Source of the DNA: Pseudomonadota bacterium
Lineage (GTDB): Bacteria; CALINM01
DNA: 13,201 nucleotides
Direction: 5' to 3'
Assembly (NCBI GenBank): GCA_026415985.1
Contig: JAOAGA010000050.1
Location: forward strand, 1 to 13,201
This document shows positions 660 to 9,883 of the stretch, in pieces. A model generated the notes under the pieces. It searched no databases. It worked only from the letters and a program-made list of their open reading frames with translations, and was not told where the DNA came from. Within the stretch, counting starts at the first letter, position 1; each line of letters begins with the position of its first letter. Position numbers and translations under genes: made by a program.

Positions 660-1955
660 TTATTTTTCCGATAAAATTGCATTCAGATCATCTTTCGGAT
701 TTGTAATTGGTTTTAATCCGTATTTCTCAACTAAAACATTTAAGACATTTGGGGTTACAAAGGCTGGCAGAGAAGGTCCTATTCTTATTCCTTTAATATC
801 AAGAGCAAGCAAGGTTAATAAAATTGCAACCGCCTTTTGTTCAAACCATGAGAGGATGAGGCTCAGTGGCAAATCATTAACATCACAGTGAAATACTTTA
901 GAAAGTGCTACCGCAACCTGAATGGCACTGTATGCATTATTGCACTGACCAATATCAATTAATCTTGGGATACCATCTATATCTCCGAAATCAAGTTTAT
1001 TAAATCTATACTTACCACAGGCAAGAGTTAATATAACAGCATCTTTGGGTACAAGTTCGGCAAACTCGGTATAATAATTTCTCCCCGGTCTTGCTCCATC
1101 ACACCCTCCTATCAGGAAGAAATGCTTAATCTTACCTGTTTTAACCGCATCTACTATCTTGTCAGCTATACTTAATATAAAGCTGTGATGGAAACCTGTC
1201 ATAATCTTTTTACCTTCCTGAGCCTTAAGAGGTTTTGTCTTTAAGGTCCTTTCAATCAATGGGGTAAAGTCCCTGTTTTTTATATGAACAGCTCCGGGCA
1301 CAGATGCTATGCCACAGGTAAACAATCTGTCTTTATAACTTTCTTTGGGAATAAGAACACAGTTAGTTGTTGCGAGAATTGTTCCGGGAAACTCATCAAA
1401 CTCTCTTTTTTGTTCCTGCCAAGCTCCTCCATAGTTACCTGCTAAATGTTTAAACTTTCTAAGTTCCGGATATGAATGGGCAGGAAGCATCTCGCTGTGA
1501 GTATAAATATTAATTCCCTTCCCTTCTGTTTGTTTCAATAACTCATATAAATCCAGCAGGTCATGCCCTGTTACAACAATTCCGTAACCTTCCTTAGTTC
1601 CAGTATCTACTTCTACCGGTGTTGGATTACCAAATTTTTCTGTATTTGCTTTGTCTAAAAGCTCCATAGCCTTTAAATTTGTCATCCCGCATCTCAAAAC
1701 TGTTTCTAAATGGTCGTTCAGATCAAAGCTTACATTAGTTAAGGTCTTAAACAGACCCTCCTTTAAAAAATCATCTACTTCCTGATCTCTGTATCCCAAC
1801 TCCTTTGCGTGATAGGCATATGCTGCGACTCCTTTCATTCCAAAAACAAGAATATCCTGCAGGGAGTTTATATCCTGATCTTTTCCGCAAACTCCTACCT
1901 GGGTACAGCCTGTGCCGTGGGCGGTTTGTTCACATTGATAACAAAACATACTCAT
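660..1955 (-). CDS. hcp: Hybrid-cluster protein, class III-like (hydroxylamine reductase / NO detoxification)
   Basis: Hcp proteins carry a cubane Fe-S cluster and a hybrid Fe-S-O cluster. They reduce hydroxylamine in vitro, and E. coli Hcp is a high-affinity NO reductase. At 431 residues this is about 120 shorter than E. coli or Desulfovibrio Hcp, yet it is not broken: it lacks the second helical domain, as class III Hcps of thermophiles and archaea do. The N-terminal cubane ligands are C5, C8, C17 and C23 (CX2C-X8-C-X5-C). By family alignment the seven hybrid-cluster ligands are all present: H131, E155, C199, C285 (GGCDGARPGR), C313 (ACGKYR), C338 (GQCNNAYSA) and E372 (WFEQKA). The first ATG has a perfect AAGGAGG at 1962-1968 with good spacing; a second in-frame ATG two codons later is less likely. 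A CRP/FNR-type palindrome lies upstream. Confidence 0.95.
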   Translation of the reverse strand: MSMFCYQCEQTAHGTGCTQVGVCGKDQDINSLQDILVFGMKGVAAYAYHAKELGYRDQEVDDFLKEGLFKTLTNVSFDLNDHLETVLRCGMTNLKAMELLDKANTEKFGNPTPVEVDTGTKEGYGIVVTGHDLLDLYELLKQTEGKGINIYTHSEMLPAHSYPELRKFKHLAGNYGGAWQEQKREFDEFPGTILATTNCVLIPKESYKDRLFTCGIASVPGAVHIKNRDFTPLIERTLKTKPLKAQEGKKIMTGFHHSFILSIADKIVDAVKTGKIKHFFLIGGCDGARPGRNYYTEFAELVPKDAVILTLACGKYRFNKLDFGDIDGIPRLIDIGQCNNAYSAIQVAVALSKVFHCDVNDLPLSLILSWFEQKAVAILLTLLALDIKGIRIGPSLPAFVTPNVLNVLVEKYGLKPITNPKDDLNAILSEK

Positions 1956-1987
1956 TTTAAACCTCCTTAATTTTATTTTAAATTAAG

Positions 1988-1996
1988 CTTATATCA
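1988..1996 (-). promoter_or_regulatory. Extended -10 element of the hcp promoter
   Basis: Read on the minus strand this is TGATATAAG, an extended -10 (TGnTATAAG, one mismatch to TATAAT). There is no good -35 at the expected distance; the TTGAC-N4-GTCAA palindrome occupies that position instead, as expected for an activator-dependent promoter. Transcription would begin near 1981, about 25 bases before the hcp ATG. Confidence 0.5.
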
Positions 1997-2013
1997 GAAA
2001 TTAATCATAAACA

Positions 2014-2027
2014 TTGACTATAGTCAA
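2014..2027. promoter_or_regulatory. CRP/FNR-family operator (HcpR-like) upstream of hcp
   Basis: The 14 bases TTGACTATAGTCAA form a perfect palindrome of the form TTGAC-N4-GTCAA. This is the layout of CRP/FNR-family sites, and the half-site resembles those reported for HcpR, the nitrosative-stress regulator of hcp in anaerobes. Its centre is about 39-41 bases upstream of the start site predicted from the extended -10 at 1988-1996 on the minus strand, which is class II activator geometry. HcpR binding is inferred; no regulator gene is in the window. Confidence 0.65.
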
Positions 2028-2200
2028 AAATTTAAAAAATACCTGCCCTTACTTTATTTTTTAGAAAATACATTATAAAAATATAGAAAATTATTTTTTC
2101 TACTAAATATATCTGGGCTATTAAATCTTTTTATCACATTAAATTACTATTCATTCAAAAACTTTTTTTGTTACTTTTATATAATTTTTTTAAGCTTTAC

Positions 2201-2229
2201 TTGACACATAAAGAATTAATTATTATATT
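2201..2229 (+). promoter_or_regulatory. Sigma-70 promoter P1 of the HsdM/S-like gene
   Basis: A perfect -35 TTGACA at 2201-2206 and a -10 TATATT at 2224-2229 are separated by 17 bases. Transcription would start near 2236, giving a leader of roughly 110 bases before the ATG at 2349. It shares the 11-base stretch TTTACTTGACA with the downstream promoter P2. Confidence 0.6.
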
Positions 2230-2294
2230 TAAAGTATATTGTATAATTTTTACGATAAATCAAAAATAATTTATAGTTTTTTATAAAAATTTAC

Positions 2295-2323
2295 TTGACA
2301 AAGTTTAAAATTTATGCTATATA
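2295..2323 (+). promoter_or_regulatory. Sigma-70 promoter P2 of the HsdM/S-like gene
   Basis: A perfect -35 TTGACA at 2295-2300 is followed after 17 bases by TATATA at 2318-2323, with an extended -10 TG at 2315-2316. Transcription would begin near 2330, about 19 bases before the ATG at 2349. A TTG at 2295 that could extend the coding frame upstream is part of this -35 box and so is unlikely to be a start codon. Confidence 0.65.
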
Positions 2324-2338
2324 TATTTATATAAAATT

Positions 2339-2346
2339 AAGAGGTG
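2339..2346 (+). promoter_or_regulatory. Ribosome binding site fixing the start at 2349
   Basis: AAGAGGTG is a near match to the anti-Shine-Dalgarno complement and lies just before the ATG at 2349. It supports that ATG over the in-frame TTG at 2295, which lies within promoter P2 and has no ribosome site. Confidence 0.6.
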
Positions 2347-2348
2347 CT

Positions 2349-4184
2349 ATGTTAAAAATTAGTAAACTTTTGGATTATTTAGATGCCTATGACAACATTA
2401 AGACAACAAAACAGGAACTTCCCGAAGAGACTCTTTTGCCTTTTAAGATTCTCGCATGGAAGAAATTAAGTGAACAAGGCTTATTACCAGAAGAGCATAG
2501 TTTTTTTGATTTTTTGATTAAGAAAGGGGATAAAGAAAACTTTTTCAATACCGTTAATTTTATAGGCAAAGATGAGAGTCTTAAAAAATACAGAGTTTTT
2601 TTCCCCGACGATGTGAAGTTTCTAAAAAAATATAGTGATACCGATTTAATAGCGTATATCAACAGGACTAACTTGTTAGAAAAATACCCTGATTTTGAAG
2701 ATTTTTATAATAGTATTTACAATCCAAGCAACATAGGACTTTTAAGAGGTGCATTTATAGATCTAATATTAAATCTGATAGGCTTACAGGAAACAGAAAA
2801 TATTTATAACCCCTATCCCGATGATTACAGATTAGCAGTAAGGATAAACAGTAAACTAAATAAAGAAGTATATATAGAAGATGAACAAATTACTTCATTG
2901 CCTTATATATTGAATGTCTTGTTTGATATTAACTTACATATCGAGTTTTCAAACCCTATTATGAACCCATCTTACAAAGAAGGTTATACTCTTCACTTGT
3001 TTGATACAGTGGTGTCTTTCCTACCCGTAATAAGAAAATTTGAACAAAGATTAGAAAAAGATTTTTATATAAGGTTGCAGAAAGACATTTATAATAGGTT
3101 TAATTATTTTGATATAGACAGAGCTGAATATACTACAGTATGTATTTTACATATCCTTTCGCAAACAAAAAACAGGGCTTTTGTTGTTGTCCCCGCAAAT
3201 TTTCTTAATAGAAACTTGAAAGCAGAGATTGATTTTAGAAAATTTCTCTTGGATAGAAATATTATAGATACTGTTATACTTTTTCCAAATAGCGTTTCAC
3301 AAAGGTCAACCATAAGTTATGCACTCATTGTTTTTGATAAAAATAAAGTGACAAATGATGTTTTTTTTATCGATGCTTCAGGTCTTATTACAGAGTCTGA
3401 CTATCGTAAAGAAAATATCATCATTGAACAAGAAAAGATTATAGAAATATTCAGAGACAGACCACCTGATACCGGATTTTCCCGCGTTGCGTCTTTTGAA
3501 GAGATAAAAAATAATGTTTATTCCCTGCACCCCAAAAATTATATCGAAATTAAAAATTTAAAAGAAATATTCAAAAACTTAAGCCTAACAAAACTTTCAT
3601 CATATGGAGAAATTATATCTTCACCGGTAATCAAAAGAAGAGAAGGAACCTTTCAGGTTTACGAGCTACAGCCAACGGATATTAACGAGTTCGGATTAGT
3701 AGAAAATCCTAAAAATAAAAAGGGAGTTTTCCTGACGGAGTCGGAAATTGAAAAAACAGAAATCAGAAATTATGATATTCTTTTGGTCTCAAAGGGAACG
3801 AAGGAATCACTCGGCAAAATAGGATTAGTAATAAATAAACCCGAAAATGAGACATGGATCGCAGGTCAGAGCATTATAACAATCAGAGCAAAATCTAACT
3901 TATTTGCAAAGGCTTTGTTTATGTTTTTAAAAACCGAAAGTGCAATGACAATGCTCAACTCTTTGGCAATAGGGGATATTCTATTAAATATATCTGCAAA
4001 ATCTTTGCGGGATATGAAAATTCCAGAGATAAAAGAGAAAAAAGCTGAAAAAATGGAAAGTCTGTTTTATCAATACATAAAAAGTTATGAAGAAATTAAA
4101 AGTTTAAAAGAAGAAATGAGTTCAGTAGCCGAAAGAACTATAAAAATTATTAAAGAAGAATTAAATGACAATCAAACTAATTGA
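2349..4184 (+). CDS. HsdM/HsdS-like fusion protein with eroded methyltransferase motifs
   Basis: This 611-residue protein has the layout of a Type I DNA methyltransferase (M) fused to half of a specificity (S) subunit. Residues about 1-120 form a charged helical N-terminus. Residues about 125-400 follow the HsdM core: RAFVVVPANFL (277-286), IDTVILFPNSVSQRSTISYALIVFDK (306-331, cf. HsdM 'VIxLPxxxFxxTxIxTxILVLxK'), FFIDAS (339-344), GFSRVASFEEI and Y399. Where motif I (DPxxGxGxF) is expected it reads NPYPDD (154-159), and where NPPF is expected it reads FLPV (224-227). Both SAM-binding and catalytic residues therefore appear lost. Residues about 412-600 resemble one HsdS target-recognition half: G483 region, SIITIRAK, LNISAKSLRDMKIP, then a coiled-coil end. 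There is no hsdR or separate hsdS beside it. The frame is intact, so it may act as a non-methylating DNA-binding protein (inference). It is very AT-rich and may have been acquired. Confidence 0.7.
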   Translation: MLKISKLLDYLDAYDNIKTTKQELPEETLLPFKILAWKKLSEQGLLPEEHSFFDFLIKKGDKENFFNTVNFIGKDESLKKYRVFFPDDVKFLKKYSDTDLIAYINRTNLLEKYPDFEDFYNSIYNPSNIGLLRGAFIDLILNLIGLQETENIYNPYPDDYRLAVRINSKLNKEVYIEDEQITSLPYILNVLFDINLHIEFSNPIMNPSYKEGYTLHLFDTVVSFLPVIRKFEQRLEKDFYIRLQKDIYNRFNYFDIDRAEYTTVCILHILSQTKNRAFVVVPANFLNRNLKAEIDFRKFLLDRNIIDTVILFPNSVSQRSTISYALIVFDKNKVTNDVFFIDASGLITESDYRKENIIIEQEKIIEIFRDRPPDTGFSRVASFEEIKNNVYSLHPKNYIEIKNLKEIFKNLSLTKLSSYGEIISSPVIKRREGTFQVYELQPTDINEFGLVENPKNKKGVFLTESEIEKTEIRNYDILLVSKGTKESLGKIGLVINKPENETWIAGQSIITIRAKSNLFAKALFMFLKTESAMTMLNSLAIGDILLNISAKSLRDMKIPEIKEKKAEKMESLFYQYIKSYEEIKSLKEEMSSVAERTIKIIKEELNDNQTN

Positions 4185-4264
4185 TAATTTGTTTTTAGGC
4201 TTTTTAAAGGTAGTCTTATCATATTTGTTAATTATTTTCTAACTAAAGATATACATCTAATTTA

Positions 4265-4276
4265 ATGATATATCAT
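4265..4276. promoter_or_regulatory. Perfect 12-base palindrome upstream of the zinc-ribbon/protease cluster
   Basis: ATGATATATCAT is a perfect palindrome in the 202-base gap before the cluster. An 8-base palindrome CTGATCAG (4332-4339) and a repeated ACCTGAT(T)CAG (4313-4323 and 4330-4339) lie between it and the first gene. These could be operator sites, but in AT-rich DNA the 12-mer may be chance, and I see no confident -35/-10 pair in this gap. Confidence 0.25.
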
Positions 4277-4386
4277 CATTAAGAGACCGAGCCCATATTC
4301 TCTCTATTTCCTACCTGATTCAGAACCCGACCTGATCAGTGCAAATCAGAAAACAGATTTAAAAAATAATTTTAAGGGGGTTTTTT

Positions 4387-4626
4387 ATGACAACTTACAG
4401 GGCTTTATTATGTGATGAGCATGGTTTTTATGATATCGATAGAGAAAAGTGCGCAATCTGCGGAAGCTGGCCAGCGCAAAATCAAGCTTTACTTTGTGGC
4501 GGTTGTGGTTTTTTAAGCAGTGATAGAGAAAAATGTGCGGTATGTGGTAAATGGCCTGCAAGACATCCCGCTATGGTCTGTGATAATCATAAAGGTAGAT
4601 GTGTTAAATGTGGTAAATACATTTAA
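4387..4626 (+). CDS. Small protein with three tandem zinc-ribbon-like modules
   Basis: This 79-residue protein is almost entirely metal-binding motifs. Module 1 is C9-X2-H12 with C22-X2-C25, module 2 is C37-X2-C40 with C50-X2-C53, and module 3 is C65-X2-H68 with C72-X2-C75. Modules 1 and 2 are 28-residue repeats sharing GF, DREKCA(I/V)CG and WPA, so the protein arose by internal duplication; module 3 is shortened, with three rather than nine residues between its pairs. There is no signal peptide or membrane segment, so a cytoplasmic adaptor or nucleic-acid-binding role is possible but unproven. The start ATG follows AAGGGGG with ordinary spacing. It is the first gene of a close-packed plus-strand cluster and ends 11 bases before the next. 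I do not recognise a named family. Confidence 0.75.
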   Translation: MTTYRALLCDEHGFYDIDREKCAICGSWPAQNQALLCGGCGFLSSDREKCAVCGKWPARHPAMVCDNHKGRCVKCGKYI

Positions 4627-4637
4627 GGAGACCTTTT

Positions 4638-4808
4638 ATGAAAAAAGAATTAATAAAATTAAAAGGTTTAAACATCCTGATAAAAATATTAAAAATTAAC
4701 GGAATAATTTATGAAGAGTATACGGTTTATAAATTTAATAAATTAATCTGGGTAAACATGTGCCAGGTTAAGTTTAATAAAAGAAAAAATAATTTTATAG
4801 AAAATTAA
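4638..4808 (+). CDS. 56-residue basic hypothetical protein
   Basis: A short frame starts at an ATG preceded by AAGGAGA at 4625-4631 and ends 13 bases before the protease gene. The product is rich in Lys, Ile and Asn, with a first part that could form an amphipathic helix (KKELIKLKGLNILIKILKI) and a second part that could form strands (IIYEEYTVYKFNKLIWV). It has one Cys and no recognisable motif. Good ribosome-site spacing and tight packing between two real genes support translation, but base composition alone could keep a frame of this size open. The function is unknown; it could be an accessory or inhibitor peptide of the neighbouring protease, which is speculation. Confidence 0.5.
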   Translation: MKKELIKLKGLNILIKILKINGIIYEEYTVYKFNKLIWVNMCQVKFNKRKNNFIEN

Positions 4809-4821
4809 AAAAGGGGGCCTT

Positions 4822-5781
4822 ATGTCTCAACAATTTAGTATTCAGATTAATCAGTTTTTTCCTTATAAATTAATTGATGGTCATATCATTGTAAAAGATA
4901 AGGAAAATGAAATTGTTATTGATACCGGTTCACCAATATCAATAGTAAAAAGTAATTACAGACCGCCTTTTTTTCTGCTAAAAAGAGTAAATTTTTTAGA
5001 AAATGAGATCCTGCTTGATGAAATATCAAATAAAATCAGGACATGCAATTTATCGGCAATTATCGGTAGTGATGTCCTTTCCTCTCTCGACATAAGTATA
5101 GATCCTTTAGGTAACACAATCATGATTTCTGAACCAAGAGATAAAGATGATATAGAATCCTTTTATACCGATAAAATAATGCTGTCAATTAGAACCATTA
5201 TGAATATCCCTGTAATTGATCTGGATATTGAAGGTGCCAAAAGAAAAATGTTTTTAGATACCGGTGCCAAGATAAGCTATTTAAAAGAAAATCTAATAAA
5301 AGATATGGAACCTGTTATAAAAAATGTCTCTGATTTTTCTCCCTTTAATCTGGAAGAATTTACAACCGATTTATATGAAAAAATAATAAAAGTAGGCAAT
5401 AGTAAAATTAATCTAAAATTTGGAACCTTACCGTCTTCGCTTTCACAAAAACTTCTATTATCAAACAATGTAGATGGCATTTTAGGTACTGCCATATTGA
5501 AAAACTGTTCTGTCTATCTTAGTCTGGCTAACAGATTTGTATGTATCGCCAATCTGCCTGAAAAGGTCATGCCTGAAGGAACAAAAGAAAGATGGACTCA
5601 AAGATTAAGATATACTTCTAATATGTATCTACGTGATTCTGATTTAGCAGAGACAATGCCTGAAGATTGCAAAGGCTATCTTCCCGCAATAGAGATTATA
5701 CAAAGAAAGATGCTGTCTCTGACAACAGGTAGTATGACACATACGTATCTTATGAATTTGTTAAATAGAATATTAAATTAA
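4822..5781 (+). CDS. Double-domain retropepsin-like aspartic protease
   Basis: This 319-residue protein holds two retropepsin-like lobes in one chain. Lobe 1 has the catalytic triplet D34-T-G in IVIDTGSP and the partner hydrophobic-Gly motif IIGSDVL (80-86). Lobe 2 has D146-T-G in FLDTGAK and GILGTAIL (219-226). Retropepsins are normally homodimers with one DTG per chain, so two intact DTG motifs suggest a self-contained pepsin-style monomer formed by duplication. Residues about 245-319 form a helical tail outside both lobes. No signal peptide or membrane segment is seen, so it should act in the cytoplasm. Bacterial relatives by fold include PerP, SpoIIGA and rickettsial APRc, which cleave specific partner proteins. 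The substrate here is unknown; the neighbouring zinc-ribbon or membrane protein is a candidate. The ribosome site is AAGGGGG. Confidence 0.8.
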   Translation: MSQQFSIQINQFFPYKLIDGHIIVKDKENEIVIDTGSPISIVKSNYRPPFFLLKRVNFLENEILLDEISNKIRTCNLSAIIGSDVLSSLDISIDPLGNTIMISEPRDKDDIESFYTDKIMLSIRTIMNIPVIDLDIEGAKRKMFLDTGAKISYLKENLIKDMEPVIKNVSDFSPFNLEEFTTDLYEKIIKVGNSKINLKFGTLPSSLSQKLLLSNNVDGILGTAILKNCSVYLSLANRFVCIANLPEKVMPEGTKERWTQRLRYTSNMYLRDSDLAETMPEDCKGYLPAIEIIQRKMLSLTTGSMTHTYLMNLLNRILN

Positions 5782-5819
5782 AGATAGCTTTTATAAATAA
5801 AAAATAAGGGGGACTATTT

Positions 5820-6200
5820 ATGAACATCATGATTTATATCGTTATTTTCTTACTCTTGATTACTAAGTTTTTTGATTTGCATTCAACCATTATTAGAAAT
5901 TGCGAAAACGAAACCAATCCTGTTTTTAGGCTTTTACCAAAATTTATAGGCAAGAAAGCAAGAGCCTATCTAATTGCCTTTCTTGCCTTTTTTATAATTA
6001 TTCTTGTTGGTACTGAAATGATTAATACTGACTCATTTCTTTTTAAATTGTTATTTGTCCTTATTGGTATAGCCATATCAATAATCCAAATGATAGTGGC
6101 TTTAAAAAATTATGGTATATGTGATAAATACAAAATAATTAGTTATGTGACAGAGATTATTGAACAAAAATATAAAAAAATAGAGCAGAAAATATACTAA
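5820..6200 (+). CDS. Small three-helix membrane protein, DUF5658-like
   Basis: This 126-residue inner-membrane protein has hydrophobic segments at about residues 2-18, 48-66 and 74-95. A short loop holds FFDLHST (17-23) and ENETNP (29-34). The D..ST...E.NP pattern after the first helix matches the DUF5658 family of small membrane proteins of unknown function. The last 25 residues are charged and could form a short coiled coil in the cytoplasm. It lies 38 bases after the protease gene and has an AAGGGGG ribosome site, so it is probably part of the same transcript. The conserved Asp, Glu and Asn residues next to the membrane might bind a ligand. Whether it is a substrate or an anchor for the protease cannot be told from sequence. 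Confidence 0.65.
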   Translation: MNIMIYIVIFLLLITKFFDLHSTIIRNCENETNPVFRLLPKFIGKKARAYLIAFLAFFIIILVGTEMINTDSFLFKLLFVLIGIAISIIQMIVALKNYGICDKYKIISYVTEIIEQKYKKIEQKIY

Positions 6201-6316
6201 AAATTTTACTACTTTAACAGAAAATAGGATATCAAATTTGTCATTGGGCCTTTTCTGAACTTTGCTTGCCTCATACAATTTGTTGATTATAGTTAATTAG
6301 CCAAAGGGGGCTACTA

Positions 6317-6336
6317 AATTTTAAATCATTAAAATT
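6317..6336 (+). terminator. Possible weak terminator after the membrane-protein gene
   Basis: AATTTTAA and TTAAAATT form an 8-base-pair stem around an ATCA loop, with T-rich sequence following on the plus strand (6342-6360). The stem is all A/T, so the hairpin is weak and may be chance. It sits in the gap between the plus-strand cluster and the converging der gene, where a terminator would be expected. Confidence 0.25.
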
Positions 6337-6344
6337 GAAAATTT

Positions 6345-7678: not shown

Positions 7679-8704
7679 TCAAAAGTTTTTATTATCAAAA
7701 GACACTTCTTTTTCAATAATTTTTAAGACTTCTTCTGCAGTTATATCCATACACTCCATTGATTTGTTGCATTCCCTTTTAAAACAAGGCGCACATTCAA
7801 CTCCTTCTTTTCTTATTATCGTTGCCCCCTTTTTTAAACTAAACGGCCCTGTCCTCTCACCTGAAGTGGGACCAAATATGGCAAATATCTTTGTTCCGCT
7901 TGCACTTGCTATGTGCATGGCTCCAGAATCACAGGTTAAGACAAACTCGGCACCCTTCATTAGATAATAAAGCTGATTAACAGAAAGTCTGCCTATTAAA
8001 CTTTTTTTGGGTTCATAACTTAAAGATTCGTTTTTATCCCCGACGAAAATAACAGGCAAATTCCTGTTTTCAAGCATATCTGCCAATATTTTAAAATTTT
8101 TCTCGTTCCACATCTTTGTCTTCCATCTTGAGAAGGGGGCAAAGACAACATATTTTTTGCCAATAACCCCCATACTTTCTAAAGATTGGTTAACATAGTC
8201 AATGTCTCCCTCTTTAAGGGGGATGTAAAACTCAATATCTTCTTTTTGCCAATTAATATTTAATGGTTTGAGAAGATCTAAATATCTAAGGACTGCATGT
8301 TTAGAGTAGTCACCTTCTATTTTTTCATCATAGAATGAAGATACCGGTTCTCTTGGATTTGAGAACCCTATGTTTTTTTTACCACCAGCCATAAAAACAA
8401 TCAGAACACTCTTAAATAACCCTTGTAAATCAATAACATAATCATATTTTTTTGATTTGAGATATCTGGAAAACTTTTTTAACTCAGAAAGATTAATAAA
8501 AAACCCGAAAGGATTTAGCCATTTTCTCCTTTTAAAGCTTATAACTTCAGAGATATCGGGGTTGCCTTTCAGAAGATTTTCATAGTTTTCATTGACAACC
8601 CAGTCAATATCAGCATAGGGTATATATTTTTTTAATACTCTTACAAAGGGAATAGTATGAACAACATCCCCCAGGGAGCTCATCTTAACAATTAATATCT
8701 TCAT
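7679..8704 (-). CDS. waaC: ADP-heptose:LPS heptosyltransferase I (WaaC-type)
   Basis: This GT-B glycosyltransferase of family 9 adds an L-glycero-D-manno-heptose from ADP-heptose to the Kdo of lipid A on the inner face of the inner membrane, the first step of LPS inner-core synthesis. The N-terminus KILIVKMSSLGDVVHT with D13 matches WaaC and places the family's catalytic Asp; DWVV (34-37) is also WaaC-like. The C-terminal half has the donor-binding region FAPFSRWKTKMW (188-199) and CDSGAMHIASASGT (258-271), including D259 and H264, then FGPTSGERTGPF. A Cys-rich tail, CAPCFKREC and MECMD (304-320), is common in this family. At 341 residues it is slightly longer than E. coli WaaC. It lies 39 bases downstream of the aminotransferase gene. 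Heptosyltransferase II (WaaF) or a related GT9 enzyme is the main alternative. Confidence 0.85.
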   Translation of the reverse strand: MKILIVKMSSLGDVVHTIPFVRVLKKYIPYADIDWVVNENYENLLKGNPDISEVISFKRRKWLNPFGFFINLSELKKFSRYLKSKKYDYVIDLQGLFKSVLIVFMAGGKKNIGFSNPREPVSSFYDEKIEGDYSKHAVLRYLDLLKPLNINWQKEDIEFYIPLKEGDIDYVNQSLESMGVIGKKYVVFAPFSRWKTKMWNEKNFKILADMLENRNLPVIFVGDKNESLSYEPKKSLIGRLSVNQLYYLMKGAEFVLTCDSGAMHIASASGTKIFAIFGPTSGERTGPFSLKKGATIIRKEGVECAPCFKRECNKSMECMDITAEEVLKIIEKEVSFDNKNF

Positions 8705-8743
8705 AATCTAAAACTGATAAGAAGTTTTTGGATAAACTTAGTA

Positions 8744-9883
8744 TCAGCCCTTTGTATAGAAGGCTTTTATTGTGTCAACTACATACTCAATCTGACCATC
8801 TGTTAGCTCAGGATAGACTGGTATAGCAATTACCTCTTTTGAAGCCTTCTCTGCTACAGGAAAGTCACCTTCCTTATATCCTAAATACTGAAAACATTTT
8901 TGCAGATGAAAGGGAAGTGGATAATAGACCTCACAACCTATCCCCTTTTCTGTGAGATATTTTTTTAGATTATCTCTATCCTTTACTCTTATAACATACT
9001 GATTGTAAATATGATAATTCTTTACCCCTGAATCTTTGTAAAGTGCTTTGGGAGTCTTTACAAAATCACTAAGATTTTTTTCAGCAAAAAGTTTATTATA
9101 TTTTTCTGCATTTATTCTTCTGCCTTCATGCCAGCTCTCAAGATATCTCAATTTCACATCTAATACACCCGCCTGCAAATTGTCTAATCTGAAATTACCA
9201 CCTACATAGTCATGAAAATATTTAATCTTACTTCCATGATTTCTTAAACAATGAAGCTTTTCATAGATGATAGAATCATTGGTTGTAACAAGACCGCCAT
9301 CACCAAACCCGCCTAAGTTTTTACTGGGGAAAAAGGAAAAACATCCTGTTTCTCCGAAGTTGCCCGATGAAACTCCGTTTTTATACTGTGCACCTATAGA
9401 CTGAGCGGAATCTTCTATTAAACTAAAGCCATATTTATTTTTTAAACTTATAAGCCCGTCCATATCTGCCACCTGACCGAAAAGATGAACGGGAATGACC
9501 GCTTTTATTTTATATTTTTTTAGTGCTGATTCAAGGGAGTTACAATCGATATTGAAACTCTCTTCCTCAATATCAACAAAAACTGGTACGGCACCTAATC
9601 TTGCAACACAACCTGCCGTTGCAAAAAAGCTAAAGGTAGTGGTAGCAACATAATCACCATGTCCAATATTCAGAGCCATTAGAGATATTAAAAGTGCATC
9701 CGTTCCTGATGATACTCCTAAAGCGTATTTTGATCCCACATACTGCGCAACGTTTTTCTCAAAATCTGCGAGCTCCTTTCCAAGAATAAATCTCTGTTCT
9801 TCTATGATATTTTTTATTACAGGCTCAATCTCAGCTTTAAGCTTTGAATACTGGGCTTTTAAGTCTAATAAAGGCACGTTCAT
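8744..9883 (-). CDS. PLP-dependent nucleotide-sugar aminotransferase (DegT/DnrJ/EryC1/StrS)
   Basis: This class of enzyme transfers an amino group, usually from glutamate, to a keto-sugar nucleotide for surface polysaccharide. The 379-residue length and motifs are typical: SSGTDAL (58-64) for the phosphate pocket, HLFGQVADM (133-141), EDSAQSIGA (157-165) with D158 and Q161 for the cofactor, and SFFPSKNLGGFGDGG (183-197) with Schiff-base lysine K188. RNHGS (214-218) and GGNFRLD (228-234) follow. The HLFGQ and FFPSKNLG forms resemble WbpE/WlbC-type enzymes acting on UDP-3-keto-GlcNAcA, but PseC- or WecE-like substrates are not excluded. The ATG follows AAAGGGG. It is the first gene of the minus-strand run with waaC and der, which fits envelope glycan synthesis. 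Confidence 0.9.
   Translation of the reverse strand: MNVPLLDLKAQYSKLKAEIEPVIKNIIEEQRFILGKELADFEKNVAQYVGSKYALGVSSGTDALLISLMALNIGHGDYVATTTFSFFATAGCVARLGAVPVFVDIEEESFNIDCNSLESALKKYKIKAVIPVHLFGQVADMDGLISLKNKYGFSLIEDSAQSIGAQYKNGVSSGNFGETGCFSFFPSKNLGGFGDGGLVTTNDSIIYEKLHCLRNHGSKIKYFHDYVGGNFRLDNLQAGVLDVKLRYLESWHEGRRINAEKYNKLFAEKNLSDFVKTPKALYKDSGVKNYHIYNQYVIRVKDRDNLKKYLTEKGIGCEVYYPLPFHLQKCFQYLGYKEGDFPVAEKASKEVIAIPVYPELTDGQIEYVVDTIKAFYTKG

Follow-up and report, generated by a model that had tools for sequence, protein, structure and literature searches.

Four closely spaced open reading frames (ORFs) in a contig from a Pseudomonadota bacterium raise the question of whether they act together as one functional unit. 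The initial annotation of this 13,201-nucleotide stretch of DNA, referred to here as the window, described them as an undescribed cassette of a triple zinc ribbon, a small basic protein, a double retropepsin, and a DUF5658-like membrane protein, placed between conserved hcp and der genes. Re-reading of the ORFs bears out their arrangement, with all four on the plus strand, spaced 11, 13, and 38 bases apart and each preceded by a purine-rich ribosome site (AAGGGGG, AAGGAG, AAAGGGGG, and AAGGGGG, in gene order). Comparison with other genomes favors, with a probability of about one half, an AT-rich, lineage-specific island that holds a two-gene unit composed of the protease and the membrane protein.

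The AT-rich island is present but wider than first annotated, spanning ~2000 to 6340 with a GC content of 0.21-0.33, compared with 0.31-0.46 in flanking windows. It takes in a fifth gene (2349-4184, plus strand), encoding a 611-aa N6-methylase-like and HsdS-like protein. This protein matches PF02384 at E 3e-24 over the final two thirds of that profile, along with Type I M and S models, and possesses an HsdS-like C terminus. A simple motif scan of it revealed neither a SAM-binding motif nor NPPY, and it may be a methylase that has lost its activity and is retained for binding DNA. The supposedly conserved hcp-der setting is not retained in G002, a genome of the same family, where other genes flank der and hcp does not occur within ~8-10 kb. 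The block of der, a heptosyltransferase-like gene, a DegT-like gene, and a 55-aa gene is kept in G002, and the opposite side of der carries unrelated genes, with neither hcp nor the island there. The protease is absent from both G001 and G002, the closest relatives compared. Since the protease is missing from both genomes and the island is missing beside the G002 der, these comparisons mark the island as lineage-specific. A structured RNA or tRNA insertion at the island was ruled out, none being detected. Promoter-like sites were not above shuffled sequence, and neither of two terminator-like sites (0.7 expected) was convincing.

The first ORF (4387-4626, plus strand) encodes a 79-aa protein that is, as annotated, a triple zinc ribbon, its 12 Cys/His ligands forming three CxxC/H...CxxC repeats that align with those of homologs. 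Besides the source genome, four of 386 genomes carry it, with 65% identity in G343 and more distant homologs in G289, G600, and G519. None of these four belongs to the 22 of the 386 genomes, sampled around G000, that match the protease with E values of 1e-6 or lower (the weaker matches may be other double retropepsins), and the two sets overlap only in the source genome. As far as the contigs reach, no zinc-ribbon homolog lies near a protease, the G343 contig ending ~100 bases downstream. Phages and plasmids gave no match, and viral contigs gave three weak matches of 25 residues only. The repeated CxxC resembles that of PHF5-like and small multi-zinc proteins, and the Pfam PHF5 model is matched at 31.4 bits over a cutoff of 26.7. 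The protein is nevertheless unlike PHF5 in being short and bacterial, with three repeats and its own bacterial homologs, and cysteine spacing probably accounts for the match. The zinc ribbon is probably a free-standing family and not part of the protease unit, its position upstream of the protease being best read as chance or as a recent addition or recombination.

The second ORF (4638-4808, plus strand; 56 aa), annotated as a small basic protein, is a doubtful gene. Its codon score (z 0.6) is not above shuffles, compared with z 3.1 for the window's 55-codon gene, which G002 retains, and no homolog of the 56-aa ORF was found, including at the 40 protease loci described below. It is probably not a gene, codon evidence at a length of 56 codons being suggestive, not final.

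The third ORF (4822-5781, plus strand) encodes a 319-aa single-chain double retropepsin, in agreement with the initial annotation. Its core, residues 7-246, carries DTG motifs at D34 and D146, and clan AA motifs occur in both lobes, with D34-T-G, D146-T-G, IIG82, and ILG222 conserved. Both DTG motifs and the hydrophobic-Gly motif of each lobe are conserved in a 39-sequence alignment, and the lobes are homologous to one another (hhalign E 9.6e-10). The protein matches the Pfam families RVP (above cutoff), gag-asp, and Asp_protease_2, and the Pfam search did not assign the A1 sequence signature or the Pfam Asp family to it. A unique helical tail follows at residues 250-319, and a C-terminal extension common to this protease and that of Denitrovibrio (L020) was ruled out, the two showing no similarity. 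The AlphaFold2 model (pLDDT 83.8, with a confident core) adopts a bilobal, pepsin-like fold. Its best fold match is 9iy9 from Bacteroides fragilis (Z 17.9, 221 residues, 14% identity), and pepsins align to both lobes at Z about 13-14 over about 205 residues.

The protein has points in common with several known aspartic proteases and differs from each of them. The putative endopeptidase 9iy9 is the top match in both sequence-profile and fold searches and covers both lobes, but it measures 420 aa and is named an 'exported protein', whereas the window protease core measures ~240 aa and has no evident signal sequence. Shewasin D is a mainly cytoplasmic bacterial pepsin homolog,(PMC4814920) and shewasins A and D are, like the window protease, single-chain bacterial aspartic proteases of pepsin type.(PMC4814920) They belong, however, to family A1 and have full-size pepsin lobes, whereas the window protease has retropepsin-sized lobes assigned to Pfam retropepsin families; its model shares the bilobal single-chain fold of A1 but its sequence lacks the A1 signature. 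SpoIIGA, PerP, and APRc of Rickettsia are bacterial retropepsin-type proteases (PMC4140852) that share the DTG motif and retropepsin type with the window protease. APRc is single-lobed and dimeric with membrane helices of its own, whereas the window protease is a double-lobed soluble chain accompanied by a separate membrane gene. Because two homologous lobes lie in one chain, the protein is a single-chain variant and not a classical A2 enzyme, in which a single lobe homodimerizes. We infer that the window protein is proteolytically active. An intracellular location is plausible, as no signal sequence is evident by eye and family members are fused to VWA domains.

The protease belongs to a family of ~225-aa double retropepsins that is sporadic in bacteria, with 40 loci in 84,980 species genomes as retrieved by one public genome scan with a single motif. 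These loci are distributed over Bacteroidota, Ignavibacteria, Acidobacteriota, Elusimicrobiota, Sumerlaeota, Deferribacterota, and other taxa, and most of their proteins are ~225 aa long, start near the first lobe, and lack a signal sequence evident by eye. Phages, plasmids, and viral contigs yielded no protease match, and a phage or plasmid origin was rejected. The NCBIfam and PHROGs models tried leave the family unnamed, and a literature search, with coverage mostly outside subscription journals, returned no description of a compact cytosolic double-lobed family and no paper naming DUF5658 or PDC-M08. The source genome has two protease copies, the second following a gene read from its sequence as a V-PPase at a contig end. 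In the tree, the window copy occupies a long branch with no supported sister and is not sister to the protease of L022, a locus considered below.

Family members vary in both catalytic residues and domain composition. In G032, the catalytic Asp is lost (NTG/NTA) in both protease copies, each beside a VWA gene (L100, 832-4673 and 4640-5252; L010, 4621-6961), and L100 also has a MoxR-like AAA gene, located two genes upstream. A first-lobe STG is present in the G455 copy and in one G583 copy. A VWA domain and a double retropepsin share one chain at L003 (130-2163), L015 (6717-8687), and L018 (880-2919), and a MerR-like gene precedes the fusion in the latter two. In G009, two double retropepsins stand in tandem (L008, 7440-8120 and 8191-8817).

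Neighbor clustering across the protease loci revealed varied contexts, including methyltransferase, adjacent VWA, and ADP-ribosylglycohydrolase genes, the domain names being readings of sequences and not products of profile searches. Several Bacteroidota and Ignavibacteria have a class I methyltransferase gene that runs into the protease start; at L016, L019, L025, and L027, this upstream gene overlaps the protease by 4 bases, forming a candidate two-gene unit. ADP-ribosylglycohydrolase-like genes accompany the protease in a few loci and a DUF3990-like gene in two, and an Elusimicrobia group has two small unrelated membrane genes downstream. A hydropathy-based search for a general excess of membrane genes 3' of the protease gave no clear trend beyond the window and L022. 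Across the 40 loci, the sole neighbor common to the window island and any other protease locus is the DUF5658-like membrane protein.

This membrane protein (5820-6200, plus strand; 126 aa) contains predicted helices at residues 2-26, 45-69, and 73-97, plus a C-terminal helix. Its AlphaFold2 model has low confidence (pLDDT 59.8) and was left out of the fold search. As for the DUF5658-like label, the window protein itself lacks a Pfam match, and its L022 relative weakly matches PF18902 (E 0.001). At L022, from candidate division BRC1 (Sumerlaeota), the protease gene (7989-8675) and the membrane gene (8672-8908) overlap by 4 bases. The two membrane proteins are 39% identical (SW z 9.7 over local shuffles) and have the motif D..ST...ETNP in common; the L022 gene is shorter, at 78 aa, and may be truncated. 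The order of protease followed by membrane protein is therefore seen in two distant lineages, and it is the one link of the annotated cassette that recurs.

The membrane family is, by all searches made, very rare. Twenty-two other protease genomes contained no match, nor did plasmids and viral contigs, and 193 relatives of L022's genome gave one odd match. Matches in G028 and G146 were judged spurious, being located within a 436-aa ORF. One further clear member was found in G394, next to a PIN-like gene and without a listed protease; there (L093, 4599-5440), it lies directly 3' of the PIN-domain-like (VapC-like) gene. Given this rarity, chance adjacency to the protease in L022 would be roughly 1 in 1,500 to 3,000, as estimated from gene number.

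A functional cassette of all four genes, with a zinc-ribbon adaptor, a small basic protein, a protease, and a membrane protein engaged in regulated cleavage, defense, or stress, would accord with the tight co-directional packing and good ribosome sites. The N6-methylase-like gene upstream points the same way, as does a match to the PADLOC candidate PDC-M08B, which is weak (E 1e-4 over 23 residues) and makes a defense role a weak lead; the proteins scanned matched no other PDC-M08 model. The co-occurrence data nonetheless led us to reject the four-gene cassette, which we consider improbable. The zinc ribbon and the small basic protein occur at no other protease locus among the 40, zinc-ribbon and protease genomes are disjoint among the 386 outside the source genome, and the 56-aa ORF lacks a codon signal. 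Less probable still is a role for the window protein as a peptide-binding module instead of an active protease. Such a role is suggested by the NTG/NTA copies of G032 beside VWA genes, with the AAA gene further upstream at one locus, by the first-lobe STG of the G455 and G583 copies, and by the three VWA fusions, but both DTG motifs are intact in the window copy and in almost every one of the 39 aligned sequences.

A quite possible alternative is co-location only, in which an autonomous, mobile protease enters variable islands, with the zinc ribbon and membrane protein as unrelated passengers. The wide differences among neighbors at the 40 loci, the lack of the protease in G001 and G002 and of the island beside the G002 der, and the separate placement of the second copy after the V-PPase gene are all consistent with it. 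What argues against it is the relative of a rare membrane protein directly 3' of the protease in L022. The same pair supports the two-gene unit, against which it counts that the pair is found in one other genome, with a shorter and perhaps truncated membrane gene, that the two proteases concerned do not group as sisters in the tree, and that most protease relatives have other or unshared neighbors.

Under the preferred reading of a two-gene unit, the protease would be a compact cytosolic enzyme acting as a monomer, with two fused retropepsin lobes that form one pepsin-like active site. The membrane protein, encoded 38 bases downstream, may recruit the protease to the inner membrane or may serve as its substrate or inhibitor, and cleavage could release or remove a membrane-linked partner. 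We infer from the pairing a functional tie of the two proteins at the membrane. Neither a sigma-factor precursor nor a polarity factor gene, as would be expected of a partner in SpoIIGA- or PerP-type signaling, was seen in the window. A more speculative and rather unlikely proposal is that the pair constitutes an unnamed signaling module, in which a natural single-chain retropepsin dimer located in the cytosol would work with a small DUF5658-like membrane protein dedicated to it. The wider protease family, likewise unnamed, would then have been linked to VWA/MoxR and ADP-ribosylation genes as well, and some of its members would have become catalytically dead binding modules.

Pepsins are viewed as having arisen when a dimeric ancestor resembling retropepsins was duplicated,(PMC2642776) and natural cytosolic single-chain double retropepsins of ~225 residues are candidate living relatives of the form that linked homodimeric retropepsins to pepsins. 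Reuse of this protease family in signaling is suggested by its dead members and VWA fusions, and the pairing with a membrane protein offers a concrete candidate partner for the protease.
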